From: Thermoproteota archaeon
GTDB lineage: Archaea > Korarchaeota > Korarchaeia > Korarchaeales > Korarchaeaceae
Length of the DNA: 40,567 bases
Assembly (NCBI GenBank): GCA_027061785.1
Contig: JAMOVA010000069.1
Coordinates: forward strand, 1 to 40,567
Reading direction: 5' to 3'
This document shows positions 27,015-33,279 of the stretch, in pieces. How positions within the stretch are numbered: position 1 is the stretch's first letter; the number at the start of each line of letters is the position of its first letter. The position numbers and the translations under genes are program-made. The notes under the pieces are model-generated. The model was not told the origin of the DNA. It made no database searches and saw only the letters and a program-made list of their open reading frames with translations.

Positions 27015-27749
27015 ATGGGTAAGCGAATACTGGTTCAGAGGAGGGGAAGGGGAGGTATCCAGTTCAGATCTAGGGATCACCTCAAGATAGCTCCCGTGAA
27101 ATATCCCCCTCAGATAGGGTTGAGTGACCTCGTGAGGGGGGTCATAAAGGAGATACTACACGAGCCAGGGAGGCATACCCCGATCTCCTTGGTGGAGCTC
27201 GAAGATGGCACCAAGTTCTACTACGTACCTCCGGAGGGTGTGTACGAGGGTCAGGAGATACAGATAGGTCCTGGAGCCGAGATAAAGACGGGAAACGTCC
27301 TTCCCTTGGCCGATATACCCGACGGGACCTTGGTCTCCAACGTGGAGATAAGGCCGGGAGATGGAGGAAAGCTAGCTAGGAGAAGCGGGACCTACGCCCT
27401 GGTGTTCTCTCATGAGGGAGACAGGGTCCTCCTGAGGCTTCCCTCTAGGAAGGAGAAGTTTGTGGACGCCAGATGCAGGGCCACCATAGGCATAGTGGCT
27501 GGCGGTGGCAGGATAGAGAAACCGTTCATGAAGGCCGGTCTCAAGTACTACCACGAGAGGACCCACCCGAAGAGGTGGCCAGTAGTCAGGGGCGTGGCCA
27601 TGAACCCGGTCAGCCACCCGCACGGTGGCGGATCCCACAAGAGGCCTGGCAAGCCGACGACCGTGGCCAGGACGGCTCCACCAGGGCAGAAGGTCGGACA
27701 CATAGCTGCTAGGAAGACCGGCAGGGCTAAGAGGAGAGCTGGCCTCTGA
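27015..27749 (+). CDS. rpl2: Ribosomal protein L2 (uL2)
   Basis: A 244-residue protein needed for subunit joining and the peptidyl transferase centre. The conserved segment is [37 protein letters not shown] (about 195-231), including the histidine-rich loop. N-terminus [20 protein letters not shown] is archaeal in type. ATG 27015 follows GGTGATGGT, four bases after L23. Confidence 0.97.
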
Positions 27750-27756
27750 GCCCAAC

Positions 27757-27766
27757 CTTTATTTAT
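27757..27766 (+). promoter_or_regulatory. TATA box for S19
   Basis: CTTTATTTAT between L2 and S19, 24-33 bases upstream of the ATG at 27790. It suggests S19 can be transcribed alone; a GGGTGA site is also present. Confidence 0.5.
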
Positions 27767-27789
27767 GGCTTAGGTTATGGGTGACATGT

Positions 27790-28188
27790 ATGTCCTCCAA
27801 GGAATTCAGGTACAGGGGTTACACGCTAGAGCAGCTCCAGAGCATGACCCTAGACGAGCTGGCAGAGGTGATGCCAGCTAGAATCAGAAGGACACTGAAG
27901 AGAGGCCTTTCTCCGGAGAACAAGAAGCTCTTGGAGAAGATCAGGAAGTACAGGAGCAAGGGCATAGACAAGGTGATAAGGACCCACAGGAGGGACATGC
28001 CCGTCCTCCCCGAGATGGTGGGGGCGAAGATAGCCGTCCACAATGGGAAGGAGTTCGTTGAGATAACCGTAGTCCCCGAGATGATAGGGCACTACCTAGG
28101 AGAGTTCGCGATGACCAACAGGATAGTGAGGCACGGTAAGCCGGGCAAGGGAGCCACCAGATCCAGCAAGTTCGTGCCGCTCAAGTGA
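27790..28188 (+). CDS. rps19: Ribosomal protein S19 (uS19)
   Basis: A 132-residue protein of the archaeal/eukaryotic S15-type N-terminus ([37 protein letters not shown]) followed by the universal core [50 protein letters not shown] 27790 preferred over GTG 27781, with GGGTGA upstream. In most archaea L22, S3 and L29 follow S19; here tRNA-Ser does. Confidence 0.97.
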
Positions 28189-28210
28189 TTCACCTTTTTA
28201 TTCCCCCTCG

Positions 28211-28220
28211 CATTTATACC
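28211..28220 (+). promoter_or_regulatory. TATA box for tRNA-Ser
   Basis: CATTTATACC, centred about 29 bases upstream of the tRNA-Ser 5' end. Confidence 0.5.
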
Positions 28221-28244
28221 CCGGAATCCCCGAGCACCGCTCGA

Positions 28245-28331
28245 GCCGGGGTGGCCGAGCCAGGACCAAGGTGCCCGCCTTGAGAGCGGGTGGCCCTCCG
28301 GGCCGCGAGGGTTCGAATCCCTCCCCCGGCG
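28245..28331 (+). tRNA. tRNA-Ser(TGA)
   Basis: Class II tRNA. The acceptor GCCGGGG/CCCCGGC has discriminator G, typical of serine. The anticodon stem CCCGC/GCGGG closes CTTGAGA with anticodon TGA. The long variable arm is TGGCCCTCCGGGCCGC. T arm GAGGG-TTCGAAT-CCCTC. No encoded CCA. Its last base abuts the stop codon of the convergent LarA-like gene. Confidence 0.94.
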
Positions 28332-29573
28332 CTACACCTTGGGGAGTAGCTCCGGAGCGTTCCTCATGATGGCTACTTTGGGTTTATCTCCCAGAGATTT
28401 CAATTCCGAATCTATCGCCTCCTGCAGATCTCCGTACCAGGAGAAGCCGAGGGATCGGGCTTCCTCCTCGGAGATGCCATCGGAGACTATGACTACCCTT
28501 ATCCTAGATCTCACCTTGGACCAGACCATGGAGTTAGCGGCGCCTACGGGATCTTCGACCTCTCCCCTCCTGACCTTGGCATCTATCTCCTCAGGGCTCA
28601 ATCCGGCCAGCTCCAAGACCTCCGGATGGGTCACGGCCACGCCCTCAGGGCAGGGTGTAGCGAGTATGAGGACGCCCCCGTCCCTGAGGATCATCTCAGC
28701 CGGGTATAACGATTTGTGGGCCTGCCAGAACTCTATGTCGGCTGGATAGCTGCTAGCGATCACCAAATCGAGGTTACTGGGGGCCTCCACCTCATACACG
28801 CGCTTAGCCTCATCGACCGCCTCGGAGAAGACCTCCTTGACACCACCCGCACCCACCCAAGTGGGCCTCCCCCTACCATCGACGACTACTTCCACCAGTC
28901 CCCTCAACCCGGCCCTCTCCGCAACCAAGTCCATGAGATCCCTTACGGGGTTCACCTTCATTCCCAAGAAACTCCTCCTCAACCTGGCGCTGAGCAAGTG
29001 CATGTCCCCCACCGTCCTCTCACCGGACACCCCTGGCAGGACTATCTTCGAGCCTCCCGAGAAGCCGGAGACATGGTGAGGGGTGACCATTCCCACGCCT
29101 ATCGAGATATCCACTTTCGTGAGGACGTTGTTCACCTCGATGGGAGACCCGTCAGGCATGGATCCGACTCTAACCTGCTTTTCCGGGTCCCTGTAGTCGG
29201 GCTGAACGACCTCGACCCTCTCCAGTGCCTCCCCATACTTCCTCTCCAACTCCTCTTGGGTCATGGGTCTGTGCGTTCCCAGGGCAGCCAGCAGCAGTAC
29301 ATCATCGTCGCTCACACCAGCGGAATTGAGGTAATCTAGGAGGTGGGGGAGTATGTCTGCGGTGGGAGTCGGTCTGGTCACGTCATCGGCGATTATAGCC
29401 ACCCTCCTACCCGGGCGAACGATCCCATCTAACCCTCTCAAGGCTCGTTGCAGTGCCCCTCGGACATCCTCGAGGGGGGTAACATTGTTGGGGCCTATTT
29501 CAACAACTTGAGCCTCATCGGGGAGGTGGAAGCTCAGGTAGCGCTCCCCGTACCTGAGGGAATAAGGGACCAT
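28332..29573 (-). CDS. LarA-like nickel-pincer racemase/epimerase
   Basis: A 413-residue member of the lactate racemase (LarA) superfamily, which uses the nickel-pincer nucleotide cofactor to epimerise alpha-hydroxy acids. The signature DDVTRPTP is at 63-70. GTHRPMT holds H101; TPHHVSGFSGGSKIVLPG holds H166/H167 and K176, the lysine that carries the cofactor; H192 (DMHLLSAR) is the nickel-ligand position. Spacing of these four sites matches LarA. Cofactor genes larB/C/E are not in this window. It follows the PdxA-like gene by two bases, so it is the last gene of the sugar-acid operon. Known relatives act on lactate, malate, hydroxyglutarate or gluconate; here a four-carbon sugar acid is inferred from neighbours. 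Confidence 0.85.
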   Translation of the reverse strand: MVPYSLRYGERYLSFHLPDEAQVVEIGPNNVTPLEDVRGALQRALRGLDGIVRPGRRVAIIADDVTRPTPTADILPHLLDYLNSAGVSDDDVLLLAALGTHRPMTQEELERKYGEALERVEVVQPDYRDPEKQVRVGSMPDGSPIEVNNVLTKVDISIGVGMVTPHHVSGFSGGSKIVLPGVSGERTVGDMHLLSARLRRSFLGMKVNPVRDLMDLVAERAGLRGLVEVVVDGRGRPTWVGAGGVKEVFSEAVDEAKRVYEVEAPSNLDLVIASSYPADIEFWQAHKSLYPAEMILRDGGVLILATPCPEGVAVTHPEVLELAGLSPEEIDAKVRRGEVEDPVGAANSMVWSKVRSRIRVVIVSDGISEEEARSLGFSWYGDLQEAIDSELKSLGDKPKVAIMRNAPELLPKV

Positions 29574-29575
29574 TC

Positions 29576-30529
29576 CTACTCAGCCAACCTAAATGCCAGC
29601 TCTAAAGCCTTAAGCATGCTGCCCTCATCGGCCACGCACCTGCCGACTATGTCATAGGCCGTCCCGTGATCCACGGAGGTCCTCACATAGGGCAGCCCTA
29701 GCGTCACATTGACCGCCCTGTTGAAGCCAATTAGCTTGGCCGGTATATGACCCTGATCGTGGTACATGGCCACGACAGCGTTGAACTCCCCCCTTAGCGC
29801 CCTGAGGAAGACGGTGTCGGGTGGTAGAGGGCCTTCCACCCTGATTCCCTCGCTTTTGAGCTCCTCCACGGCCGGACCTATGATCTCAATCTCCTCCCTC
29901 CCCATCACACCGCCATCCCCAGCGTGGGGGTTCAGCCCCGCTACTGCGATGTTCACTCCTTCGCCCAACCTCCTCAGGAAGGAGGCCGTCAGTCGAACGG
30001 TCAAGGAGATCTCCTCCTTACTTATGGAGGTTGGGACATCCTTCAATGGGATGTGAGTGGTGACGTGGCTTACCCTCAACTCGTCCAGGTACAGGAGCAT
30101 CTTGGTCCTCACACCACCGGCCAGCTCCGCGAGTAACTCGGTGTGACCGGTGAACTTGATTCCAGCCATGTTGACGGCCAGCTTGTTCACTGGCCCGGTC
30201 ACCAAGGCGCCGGCCTTACCCTCCATCACCAATTTCGAGGCCCTCACCACATATCTATAGGAGTGGGTGCCACCTTCAGCGGTGGCCCTCCCCTTCGGAA
30301 CATCCTCGCCACCCATATCTATGACGGGAACGCTATCTATCAGATGTGTCGGCTCATCGACGGACGAGAACCTCAACTTCAAACCACAGAGCTCCGATAC
30401 CTCCTCGAGACACCTCTTGCATCCCACCACCGTGATGGGCCTCCCGCTACCGATGCGAGCTAGGGACTTCACAACAACCTCAGGCCCTATTCCAGCGGGA
30501 TCACCCATCGTTATCAAGATCGGCCTCAC
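29576..30529 (-). CDS. PdxA-family dehydrogenase (PdxA2-like, 4-phospho-sugar-acid dehydrogenase)
   Basis: A 317-residue NAD-dependent, metal-using dehydrogenase/decarboxylase of the PdxA family. Motifs are MGDPAGIGPEV at the N-terminus, TGPVNK, metal ligands H129 (TGHTE), H202 (GLNPHAGDGG) and H257 (MYHDQGHIP), and the C-terminal TSVDHGTAYDI. PdxA itself makes pyridoxine precursor. PdxA2 relatives act on 4-phospho-D-threonate or -erythronate and sit next to DUF1537 kinases, exactly as here, so I favour the PdxA2 role. The GTG start at 30529 has GGAGGTGG four bases upstream; it overlaps the kinase gene by 29 bases. Confidence 0.87.
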   Translation of the reverse strand: MRPILITMGDPAGIGPEVVVKSLARIGSGRPITVVGCKRCLEEVSELCGLKLRFSSVDEPTHLIDSVPVIDMGGEDVPKGRATAEGGTHSYRYVVRASKLVMEGKAGALVTGPVNKLAVNMAGIKFTGHTELLAELAGGVRTKMLLYLDELRVSHVTTHIPLKDVPTSISKEEISLTVRLTASFLRRLGEGVNIAVAGLNPHAGDGGVMGREEIEIIGPAVEELKSEGIRVEGPLPPDTVFLRALRGEFNAVVAMYHDQGHIPAKLIGFNRAVNVTLGLPYVRTSVDHGTAYDIVGRCVADEGSMLKALELAFRLAE

Positions 30530-31595
30530 ATAACCACCTCCTCACCCTGACTAGGGTCGTCTCAGTGCCGAACCCTCCCGCCTTGGTCACGATGGGCAGA
30601 CCATCTAGCGATCCACCTACTACCCATCCGGCAGCCAGTCCCTGCTCCGGTGGCTCCCCTATCCTCACGCCATCCGCTCCCGTTCCCTCCATCAGTTTCC
30701 TGAAGGTCTCCCCACCCACTACCACGAGTCCCCCGATCTTGTCGAACAATTGACGGATTTTCTCTAGCGTACCAGGCCCTAACTCAGCTAGGCGGAATCT
30801 AATTGCAACATCACCACCTTTCCTCAGTATGATGGATGCTTTCTCCATATCGGAATCGTCGATCCCTAGAACCGGTATTTCCGTGGAGAGTACTTCGAGC
30901 TGCTTGATCGTGACCTCGTTCTCCGAGCCGGATACGAATAGGATGGGACCTTTCGCTCTGGGAACCTCTCCCCCCTCCACCCCTATCCATTGGGCCAGTT
31001 CCATCGCCAGCCCTGCGCTACCCCCCATCACTCGATAGCTGGAGATCTCCCAGAAGAAGCGGGACAGCGCCTCCCTATCAGGAACTTCCCTGGCGATCAG
31101 GACGTCGGAATTGCTTTCTCCCCAATACCCCACCATCAGATCAGGGGATGTGGCCTTCAATATCTCCTCTATCAGGGAGGAGGCGACGGGTAGCTCCCTC
31201 ACATACTCCGTCTCCTCTAGAGGAACGCCCCTGACGTACAGTCGACCGTTTAGCACGATCCTCCCCTGCTCGGGGAAAGCCGGTGTGAAGGGTACGGGGG
31301 TCCCCAGTATCGAGACGATTGAGTGCATCTCGGCGCCGACGTTCCCCCTCATGGTGGAATCCACCTTCTTGTAGAGGTATCTCGGACTCGTCAAGCCTGG
31401 AGCGGTCTCTAAGACCTCTCTGACTCTCCTTTCAGCCTCCATAGGGGTGACGAGCCTGGTGTCAGTACTCAGGGATACGCACTTCCACCCATATCCAGCG
31501 GATTCGTGGTTCAGGGCGACGAAGGAACCGCGCCCGAACTGAGAAGCCGTGTCCAAGGCGCCGGTCAGGTCGTCGGCTAGGATCAGTACATCCAT
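30501..31595 (-). CDS. Four-carbon acid sugar kinase (DUF1537, DtnK/OtnK type)
   Basis: A 364-residue ATP-dependent kinase. The N-terminal domain starts LILADDLTGALDTASQF and has YKKVDSTMRGNVGAE. The C-terminal domain has LFVSGSENEVTIKQLE, VVGGETFRKLM and the nucleotide-site KAGGFGTETTL. Characterised relatives phosphorylate D-threonate, D/L-erythronate or 3-oxo-tetronate at the 4-hydroxyl. First gene of the operon with the PdxA-like and LarA-like genes. The ATG at 31595 has no ribosome site, and a TATA-like GTTTTAG lies 25-30 bases upstream, so it is probably leaderless. Confidence 0.88.
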   Translation of the reverse strand: MDVLILADDLTGALDTASQFGRGSFVALNHESAGYGWKCVSLSTDTRLVTPMEAERRVREVLETAPGLTSPRYLYKKVDSTMRGNVGAEMHSIVSILGTPVPFTPAFPEQGRIVLNGRLYVRGVPLEETEYVRELPVASSLIEEILKATSPDLMVGYWGESNSDVLIAREVPDREALSRFFWEISSYRVMGGSAGLAMELAQWIGVEGGEVPRAKGPILFVSGSENEVTIKQLEVLSTEIPVLGIDDSDMEKASIILRKGGDVAIRFRLAELGPGTLEKIRQLFDKIGGLVVVGGETFRKLMEGTGADGVRIGEPPEQGLAAGWVVGGSLDGLPIVTKAGGFGTETTLVRVRRWLCEADLDNDG

Positions 31596-31638
31596 CAGGG
31601 GCTAATAGGGGAGGATCCCCTAAAACAGTTGTCTAGGA

Positions 31639-31956
31639 TCAGGTGGTCAGCATGACTATGCTTATCTTAACGTCCTCGGGGATGGTGACCCCCATTATGC
31701 TCCTTATGTACCTCTCGTCAGGGTTAGGGATGTCTATTATGCGCTTGTGGATCCTCAGCTCGTACTTGTCGTACCTGTTCGTCCCTTCACCCGAGGGATT
31801 CCTGAGAGCGGTAACCCTGAGCCTCTTGGTCGGCAGGGGTATCGGGCCCTTGACCCTGACTCCCATCTTCTCGGCCATCTCCTTGAACATCCTGCTCACT
31901 TGGTCCAAGCTCTTGGGATTGGTGCTGACCATCTCTATCCTCAGTACCTCGGGCAT
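31639..31956 (-). CDS. rps10: Ribosomal protein S10 (uS10)
   Basis: A 105-residue small-subunit protein. GPIPLPTKRLRVTALRNPSGEGTNRYDKYELRIHKRIIDI (about 37-76) is the universal core. It follows EF-1A by 54 bases, the standard archaeal pairing, but has its own TATA box (31988-32000). ATG 31956 has GGTGGT upstream. Confidence 0.97.
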   Translation of the reverse strand: MPEVLRIEMVSTNPKSLDQVSRMFKEMAEKMGVRVKGPIPLPTKRLRVTALRNPSGEGTNRYDKYELRIHKRIIDIPNPDERYIRSIMGVTIPEDVKISIVMLTT

Positions 31957-31987
31957 TTTTTACCACCACTCACCGGGGCATCTCACT

Positions 31988-32000
31988 GCTAAATAAAAAT
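31988..32000 (-). promoter_or_regulatory. TATA box for S10
   Basis: ATTTTTATTTAGC on the minus strand between the EF-1A stop and S10, about 35-40 bases from the ATG. Confidence 0.5.
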
Positions 32001-32010
32001 GATGGAGGGT

Positions 32011-33279
32011 TTACTTCTTCTTCCTCTCCATCGGAACTACGTCCAGCACTATGCCAGCGGCGACGGTCATGCCCATGTCCCTGACCGCGAACCTGCCGAG
32101 CGGCGGGAAGTCGCTGTACTTCTCTATCACGAAGGGCTTCAGCGGCTGGAACTTCACTATGGCGGCCTCTCCCCTCCTTATGAAGCTCGGGTTCTCCTCA
32201 ATGACCTGACCGCTCCTCGGGTCTATCTTCTTCTCTATGGACACCATCTTGCAGGCCATGTGTCCGGTGTGAGCGTGTATAACGGGCGTGTAACCCGGAG
32301 CTATCGCGGTCGGGTGCTGCAGCACCACTATCTGGGCGGTGAACTCCTTGGCGACGGTGGGCGGGTTGTCAGGATGACCTATAACGTCTCCCCTCTTGAT
32401 CTCCTTCTTGTCGATGCCCTTGATGTTTATTCCTATGTTGTCGCCGGGCTCGGCCTTGTCGAGCTTCTCGTGGTGCATCTCTATGCTCTTGACCTCCGCG
32501 GTCTTGCCGAGGGGCTCTATGATGATGTTGTCGCCGGGCTTGATCACCCCAGTCTCCACCCTACCGACCACGACGGTACCGACTCCGGTTATGGAGAACA
32601 CGTCCTGTATGGGTATCCTGAGGGGCTTGTCCACCGGCTTGGGCGGCGCGGAGAACGTGTCAAGCACCTCATAGAGCGTCGGACCGTTGTACCAAGGCAT
32701 GTTTTCGCTCTTCCTGACCACGTTGTCTCCCTTCAGACCGCTCACGGGGATGAACGGTATCTTGTCGGGGTCGTAGCCGACCTTCCTGAGGAGCTCAGCC
32801 ACCTGGGCCTTGACCTCCTCGAACCTCTCCTTGCTGTAGTTGACGGTCGGATCGTCCATCTTGGATATGGCAACGGCGAGCTGATTGACTCCCAGCGTCT
32901 TGATCAGGAAGACGTGCTCTATGGTCTGTGCCTGGACGCCCTCTCCCGACTTGGCGGAGACAACCAGTACAGCCGCGTCGGCCTGACTGGCTCCGGTGAT
33001 CATGTTCTTGACGAAGTCCCTGTGTCCAGGGGCGTCTATAATGGTTATCATCTTATGGGGCGTCTCGATCTTGGTATGGAAGAGGTCGATGGTCATACCC
33101 CTCTCTCGCTCCTCCTTGAGCCTGTCCACGAGCCAAGCGAACTGGGCGTCAGCTGCCTGCTCCTCAGGAGGAAGCTCCTCCACTAGCTGGAGATCGAAGA
33201 ACATCCTCCCTATCAGCGTCGACTTTCCGTGGTCGACGTGTCCCACGAAGATCAGGTTCACGTGCTCCTTCTCGGCCAT
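32011..33279 (-). CDS. tuf: Translation elongation factor EF-1A
   Basis: Delivers aminoacyl-tRNA to the ribosome with GTP. All 422 residues are present. G1 is GHVDHGKS (13-20), the effector region contains [10 protein letters not shown], and G3 is DAPGH (82-86). G4 reads S139-K-M-D142 in VAISKMDD, where NKMD is usual. Domains 2 and 3 are intact ([37 protein letters not shown]). ATG 33279 has GGGTGATAAG directly upstream. A TATA box at 33330-33338 gives a leader of about 30 bases. Confidence 0.97.

Follow-up and report, generated by a model that had tools for sequence, protein, structure and literature searches.

The closest described systems

Bacterial catabolism of D-threonate and D-erythronate to dihydroxyacetone phosphate reportedly relies, following Zhang et al. 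2016, on the kinase DtnK or DenK acting with the dehydrogenase PdxA2. The locus described here likewise places a DUF1537 kinase beside a PdxA2-like dehydrogenase, but differs from the bacterial pair in that it adds a putative nickel epimerase, spans archaea as well as bacteria, and has a short kinase (364 aa) scoring under the NCBIfam cut-off for D-threonate kinase. For the added enzyme, the nearest parallels are the D-gluconate 2-epimerases GntE1 and GntE2 (LarAH19/20), which carry out epimerisation of a polyhydroxy acid at C2 in sugar-acid catabolism, depend on the nickel-pincer cofactor (NPN), and share with it an alanine at the W358 position and a valine at the F176 position. They are nonetheless remote in sequence (a match to 4nar at 2e-11, in the N-terminal part), act on hexonates, and carry E and H where the LarA homologue of the operon has H and N, their signature being E,V,A,H (PMC11770544). 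The main texts of the LarA papers mention no link between GntE-type epimerases and DUF1537 or PdxA2. The malate and lactate racemases Mar2, LarA1, and I. pallida LarA share the fold, the catalytic histidines, and the NPN-binding residues, but belong to another clade, with a different pocket signature and genomic context.

An earlier note on this DNA stated that no LarA homologue had been described on threonate or erythronate. That holds in main texts, where we found no earlier link between LarA and erythronate or tetronates, between COG3395 and COG1995, or between Korarchaeota and lactate racemase. On the other hand, several LarAs epimerise 4-deoxy-threonate/4-deoxy-erythronate as side reactions (PMC11770544), and the chemistry therefore appears nearer to what is known than the note supposed; what appears new is a dedicated clade with a pathway role.

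A three-gene operon in a Korarchaeum-like archaeon

Within the window—the whole 40,567-nucleotide stretch of DNA that was analysed—three minus-strand genes had been described as overlapping or touching and as encoding a kinase, a PdxA-like protein, and a LarA homologue, an arrangement that open reading frames and Pfam searches confirmed. The kinase gene (30501..31595) overlaps pdxA (29576..30529; 317 aa, GTG start) by 29 nt, and 2 nt separate the pdxA stop from the start of a full-length larA (28332..29573; 413 aa), the same spacing as first noted. Ribosomal protein S10 (31639..31956, minus strand, recognised by eye from the sequence) lies 43 nt upstream of the kinase, followed on the same strand by EF-1A (32011..33279, recognised by synteny and by Pfam on the orthologue in L077); both are conserved neighbours that are not part of the pathway. 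The order EF1A-S10-kinase-pdxA-larA, converging on S19-L2, is kept in seven further genomes from the genus, and dN/dS values of 0.065-0.10 between close relatives show larA to be under purifying selection.

The kinase scores above the Pfam cut-offs for SBD_N (1.8e-30) and NBD_C (1.3e-10) and has the motifs ADDLTGA, GGE, and TKAGGFG, with residues conserved across 32 kinases; judged by its sequence, it is a DUF1537 four-carbon acid sugar kinase. Its best NCBIfam model is D-threonate kinase (NF047819), at 148.8 bits against a cut-off of 450, and it was not assigned as a DtnK equivalog. The dehydrogenase (Pfam PdxA, 2.1e-100) has the motifs GHTE, NPHAG, and YHDQGH, and its nearest solved structures are 6e85 (D-threonate 4-phosphate dehydrogenase, 8e-82) and 2hi1 (PdxA2), with PdxA1 behind at about 1e-64. 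Equivalog status for D-threonate 4-phosphate dehydrogenase (NF002891) was likewise not assigned, at 301 of 583 bits. No PdxJ above cut-off was found in any of the 29 genomes searched in the phylum, which argues that this PdxA does not serve the PdxJ route to vitamin B6. Taken together, the greater closeness to PdxA2 than to PdxA1, the motifs, the DUF1537 neighbour, and the PdxJ result identify the gene product as a predicted PdxA2-like 4-phospho-tetronate dehydrogenase, in agreement with what the earlier note had proposed for the protein beside the kinase.

Fold, catalytic residues, and pocket of the LarA homologue

The third protein matches Lar_N (8e-51) and LarA_C (1.4e-08) in Pfam, and its AlphaFold2 model (pLDDT 95.9) resembles 9eid, a LarA with a bound D-2-hydroxyacid, at a Foldseek TM of 0.92; by its domains and predicted fold it is a LarA-superfamily racemase/epimerase. 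In an alignment to L. plantarum LarA1 (6c1w), residues encoded by codons 67 to 192 (28998..29375, minus strand) correspond as R67=R75, H101=H108, H166=H174, K176=K184, and H192=H200, with Q284=Q295 and K287=K298 as further matches, so that equivalents of the catalytic H108/H174 and of the NPN-binding R75, K184, and H200 are all kept. The earlier claim that H101, H166/H167, K176, and H192 are retained stands as far as their presence and alignment go, except that H167 is not catalytic: it takes the place of LarA1 F175, a substrate-specificity position.

The specificity residues as a set (28533..29075, minus strand) are H167, V168, W283, A346, and N347, equivalent to F175, F176, Y294, W358, and T359 in LarA1, and the meaning of these positions was taken from PMC11770544 and PMC11851776. 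Across the clade defined below, the pocket signature is H-I/V-W-A/S-L/N; at the T359-equivalent position most members, the bacterial ones among them, have Leu, and Asn is confined to the Korarchaeum-like group, which suggests that substrates may differ within the clade.

The protein scores under every curated NCBIfam cut-off. Assignment as a lactate racemase (LarA sensu stricto) was rejected on H,V,A,N at positions 175, 176, 358, and 359 versus F,F,W,E/Q and on 227 bits against a cut-off of 460 for NF033504, and assignment as a malate racemase (LarAH5/6) on A,N rather than H/Q and K at 358 and 359 and on scores of 278/500 and 262/462 bits for NF052593/NF052595. A D-gluconate 2-epimerase was set aside on H,V,A,N versus E,V,A,H, the weak match to 4nar, 82/500 bits for NF052594, and no close kinship to groups 18-20. 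The same genome also encodes a second LarA (G000:C34), in which these positions read Y,F,H,K, the malate signature.

A LarA clade that recurs with the kinase and PdxA

In a survey of 81 LarA proteins, the homologue groups into a supported 36-member clade that excludes the lactate and malate racemases with solved structures. Kinase-PdxA-LarA clusters accompany 24 of the 36 clade members and, outside the clade, not one of 45 non-reference LarAs (Fisher p 5e-12, relatedness ignored), and none of 500 shuffles of the tree labels was as clustered as the observed tree. Two loci, one with its kinase on another contig (L085) and one with a kinase about 10 kb away and without PdxA (L092), were left out of the cluster count. 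The hosts are Korarchaeum-like archaea, Baldrarchaeota, Chloroflexota, Thermomicrobiota, Hydrogenedentota, and Bacillota, and at least four gene orders occur across these six phyla; the trio was thus found again, differently ordered, in at least five phyla other than that of the window. In Gracilibacter and two Moorella species, the same genes belong to more extended same-strand runs that include TRAP transporters. An apparent absence of the kinase near LarA in these genera was rejected, the gene lying farther along the same strand. Seven clade members are not linked to a kinase, and of 20 genomes checked, five have no DUF1537 kinase at all.

A proposed tetronate route and its alternatives

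D-threonate and D-erythronate are C2 epimers with a common C3, the carbon oxidised by PdxA-family enzymes. We propose, with moderate confidence, that the three genes form a C4 sugar-acid catabolic operon in which LarA is an NPN-dependent D-threonate/D-erythronate C2 epimerase feeding the kinase and PdxA2. NPN-loaded LarA would take a hydride from C2 of either acid, keep the 2-oxo intermediate, and return the hydride to the other face, interconverting the epimers; the kinase would then phosphorylate O4 of the favoured epimer, PdxA2 would oxidise C3, and the resulting beta-keto acid would lose CO2 to give dihydroxyacetone phosphate. Epimerisation at C2 would probably let two related acids share one route. 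We infer the activity of LarA, its use of a free D-series C4 acid, and the direction in which the pathway runs; threonate and erythronate are the pair suggested by context, stereochemistry, and pocket residues.

This reading draws on the clade-specific clustering, in several gene orders and six phyla, and on the transporter-bearing runs of Gracilibacter and Moorella; on a PdxA nearest PdxA2, the PdxJ result, and D-tetronate stereochemistry; on the kept catalytic and NPN-binding residues, the predicted fold, larE and a partial larB in the same genome, and LarC in 16 of 20 genomes carrying the clade; and on a pocket whose V and A recall gluconate epimerases, unlike F-F-W (lactate) or H/Q-K (malate). 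Counting against it are the variable T359 position, the members and genomes without the kinase, and some relatives' missing cofactor genes, and Desguin 2020 (PMC7583248) cautions that the activity of a LarAH cannot always be read from its genomic context.

Neighbouring genes hint at other acids: IlvD/EDD and enolase-family sugar-acid dehydratases stand beside clade members (L093, L086), PanB/PanE-like genes adjoin LarA at L087, and URO-D-like and 2-oxoacid dehydrogenase genes lie near it in Moorella. LarA might accordingly serve this pathway through NPN-dependent C2 epimerisation or racemisation of a different acid, be it an L-tetronate, a C5/C6 aldonate, a branched C4 acid, or a 4-phospho ester, as the variability at position 359 would also allow. 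We consider this unlikely, though the strongest of the alternatives, since the Korarchaeum-like operon has only three pathway genes and a shared substrate should suit both kinase and PdxA2; PdxA-family enzymes, moreover, take substrates that have the D configuration at C3.

LarA could also be an ordinary racemase of lactate, malate, or a short-chain hydroxyacid that sits in the operon by chance, which would fit its fold and its best NCBIfam model, malate racemase LarAH6 (278 bits). This is nevertheless improbable: that score is far under the cut-off of 500, neither the lactate nor the malate signature is present, the clade is separate, the malate signature already sits on G000:C34, and linkage to kinase and PdxA recurs over phyla in varied orders.

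Another alternative is that the cofactor is not made, in which case LarA would not be an NPN enzyme in this organism. Searches of its own genome with PF00731 and PF01969 returned no match, and the assembly has no larC. When the larB-larC region of G001 was mapped to every genome of the genus, however, contig C112, which also carries larE, proved to break off within larB after its first 152 codons (84% identity over 148 aa). The apparent absence of larB and larC is best read as an assembly gap, larB-larC being intact in the closest relatives, G001 and G015. With all NPN-binding residues kept, this alternative seems very improbable, even though G010, G011, and G005 have no recognisable larB, larC, or larE. 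In those three genomes, larA is intact and under purifying selection all the same.

Hardly credible, finally, is a role of kinase and PdxA in vitamin B6 salvage or repair through 4-hydroxythreonine phosphorylation, with LarA a bystander: a DUF1537 kinase can phosphorylate 4-hydroxy-L-threonine, according to work cited in PMC10971088, but PdxJ was not found above cut-off in the 29 genomes searched, PdxA is nearest PdxA2, and LarA belongs to the conserved unit.

The earlier note, which read LarA as an epimerase in a kinase-PdxA2 route, had named two findings that would speak against it: absence of all Lar cofactor genes, or placement within a characterised lactate or malate racemase clade with no recurrent link to DUF1537 kinases. 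We looked for both and encountered neither—larE is present and larB is cut by a contig end, and the protein lies outside the reference racemases in a recurrently linked clade—which supports the interpretation, the substrate being the part we infer.

Implications

For about half of the LarA superfamily, no substrate has been predicted (PMC11770544), and a clade that recurs alongside one pair of catabolic enzymes across many phyla offers an unusually specific and testable assignment. Testing need not depend on uncultured archaea, as the clade has cultured members in Moorella mulderi and Moorella stamsii. More tentatively, and with considerable doubt, we suggest a dedicated LarA subfamily of tetronate C2 epimerases working with DUF1537 kinase and PdxA2 in archaea and bacteria, which some Korarchaeum-like lineages use without cofactor synthesis of their own, by scavenging NPN or a precursor or by an unrecognised route; relatives that have no larB, larC, or larE pose this separate question of cofactor supply. 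If the proposed epimerase is real, it would add a step to C4 sugar-acid catabolism and give nickel-pincer chemistry a part in how a deep archaeal lineage obtains its carbon.

Operon structure and conservation in the genus

Three minus-strand genes in the window—a DUF1537 kinase (30501-31595), pdxA (29576-30529, with a GTG start) and larA (28332-29573)—were recovered as open reading frames with Pfam matches above cut-off, in agreement with the positions given in the earlier note. Kinase and pdxA overlap by 29 nt, and 2 nt separate the pdxA stop from the larA start; upstream of the kinase on the same strand, at 43 nt, lies ribosomal protein S10, preceded by EF-1A. Neither kinase nor LarA had an NCBIfam equivalog match, the top model for LarA being malate racemase LarAH6, at 278 bits where the cut-off is 500. 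PdxA passed the broad model TIGR00557, and its nearest solved structures were D-threonate 4-phosphate dehydrogenase (6e85) and PdxA2 (2hi1), with PdxA1s coming after. The source assembly (archaeal, 1.76 Mb, 132 contigs), of which the window is contig C69, is 98.5% complete.

Ten further genomes of the genus, provisionally called Korarchaeum-like here, carry LarA orthologues at 67-95% identity, some as contig-end fragments, and every sufficiently long contig keeps the order kinase-pdxA-larA, flanked by EF1A-S10 and convergent S19-L2. This location (27015-33279 in the window), directly 3' of one set of translation genes and convergent with another across the genus, is an unusual site for a catabolic operon. 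Values of dN/dS for larA of about 0.07-0.11 in the genus indicate purifying selection; one orthologue (G008, L063:5263-6500) is frameshifted around codon 340, through either sequencing error or decay.

A LarA clade linked to the kinase and PdxA

We scanned GTDB genome contigs with a LarA alignment and two conserved peptides, keeping the best 80 loci (so that counts are no census), and sought kinase and PdxA neighbours by profile searches of the LarA flanks. Both were found near 24 of the 81 non-reference LarAs in our tree (LG+C20, 1000 ultrafast bootstraps), and all 24 fell in a single clade of 36 (support 95/84), with none among the 45 non-reference rows outside it (Fisher p 5e-12, relatedness ignored; 0/500 label shuffles as clustered as observed). 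The clade excludes Mar2, I. pallida LarA, the lactate racemases and the second LarA of the window's genome, whose long branches are placed only uncertainly relative to one another. The tree references were four racemases of solved structure, other characterised LarAHs being compared only through published residue signatures and NCBIfam scores. The recurrent link to the kinase and PdxA, and a position outside the lactate and malate reference racemases, hold for the group: 24/36 members are linked, across several phyla. Among the 12 members lacking a flanking pair, two lie on cut contigs (L068, L106), three have the pair farther along the same strand (L083, L088, L091) and seven are unlinked (L084, L085, L089, L092, L099, L110, L112).

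Archaeal clusters occur in Korarchaeum-like genomes, a second family of the same phylum (G027) and Baldrarchaeota (L095); bacterial ones occur in many Chloroflexota, Sphaerobacteraceae (Thermomicrobiota), Hydrogenedentota and Bacillota. Gene order varies—kinase-pdxA-larA in Korarchaeum-like genomes and L087, larA-kinase-pdxA in Chloroflexota and G027, pdxA-larA-kinase in L093, L100 and L105, and larA-pdxA with a divergent kinase in L095—and this retention of content despite shuffled order favours functional linkage over inherited position. Longer same-strand runs that include TRAP transporter genes hold the operon genes at their two ends in Gracilibacter (L171) and in two species of Moorella. 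The run of about 15 genes in M. mulderi (L172:2430-18683) and M. stamsii (L173:2254-18417) encodes, besides kinase, PdxA and LarA, three URO-D-like proteins, a TRAP transporter, an iron alcohol dehydrogenase, E1/E2 of a 2-oxoacid dehydrogenase and two SDRs. A PrpR-type sigma-54 activator lies upstream in L087 and L171, and in L087 (8254-10198) PanB- and PanE-like genes directly follow kinase-pdxA-larA, then a TRAP transporter. L110 also has a PanB-like gene near LarA.

A sister group with an R-V-A-H pocket (L120, L121, L122, L127, L128, L131, L135, L149; hosts delta-proteobacteria, Syntrophaceae) adjoins a PfkB kinase and zinc alcohol dehydrogenase. Its NPN lysine (K184) is replaced by Asn and Q295 by Leu, and its cofactor use may differ, given these replacements. 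Two other homologues (L136, L145), with Leu or Ile for the second catalytic histidine, perhaps resemble recently described single-histidine enzymes.

Active site

Alignment to L. plantarum LarA1 upheld the claim that the window LarA keeps its key residues, with all catalytic and NPN-binding positions retained. At the substrate-choice positions F175, F176, W358 and T359 it has H167, V168, A346 and N347, and W283 at Y294. Across the clade, H occupies the first position in 35/36 (0/45 rows outside), with I or V at the second, W at Y294 and A/S/G at W358 in 36/36; the T359 position holds L in 27, N in 8 (all Korarchaeum-like) and V in 1. Set against published signatures—lactate F,F,W,E/Q; malate H/Q-K at the last two positions; 2-hydroxyglutarate Y,F,H/Q,T; gluconate E,V,A,H (PMC11770544)—this pocket is neither lactate- nor malate-like; its nearest counterparts in kind, though not by descent, are those of gluconate epimerases. 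In the genome's second LarA (contig C34; L002:698-1939), which adjoins a membrane permease-like gene, the pattern is Y,F,H,K, that of malate racemases. An AlphaFold2 model of the window LarA (pLDDT 95.9) has the D-2-hydroxybutyrate-bound I. pallida LarA as a structural match (TM 0.92).

Cofactor supply

Family searches of the window's genome found larE (213 bits) and neither larB nor larC in the assembly. Mapping the larB-larC region of G001, a close relative with both genes intact, onto genus genomes located larE on contig C112 of the window's genome, together with genes for electron-transfer flavoprotein and a larB fragment of 152 codons from its 5' end (L076, C112:1-456; 84% identity over 148 aa). 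Because larB breaks off at the contig edge, we attribute the apparent absence of larB and larC to an assembly gap. Of the cofactor genes named in the earlier note, larE and partial larB were found in the assembly, larC was not. LarC occurs in 16/20 genomes carrying the clade. Family searches of G010, G011 (99% complete in two contigs) and G005 (63% complete) returned no larB, larC or above-cut-off larE, yet their LarA genes (L065, L067; L068 in G005) are intact, encode every catalytic residue and show a dN/dS near 0.09, a combination that suggests NPN scavenging, cross-feeding or an unrecognised synthesis route.

Predicted function

D-threonate and D-erythronate differ solely at C2, PdxA-family enzymes act at the D-configured C3 common to both, and C2 ceases to be a stereocentre upon decarboxylation. 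The simplest reading, predicted from gene context, stereochemistry and pocket residues, is that LarA would act as a C2 epimerase, paired with a kinase favouring one tetronate epimer. DUF1537 kinases for both acids are established, according to work cited in PMC10971088, and PdxA2 serves organic-acid catabolism, not B6 synthesis (PMC9997740); no PdxJ scored above cut-off across 29 genomes of the phylum. Other LarAs epimerise 4-deoxy-threonate and 4-deoxy-erythronate (PMC11770544), which makes tetronate C2 epimerisation chemically feasible and also lessens its novelty. Supplementary tables of the LarA papers may hold an earlier mention of this context; what appear to be new are a dedicated LarA clade, its predicted pathway and its spread.
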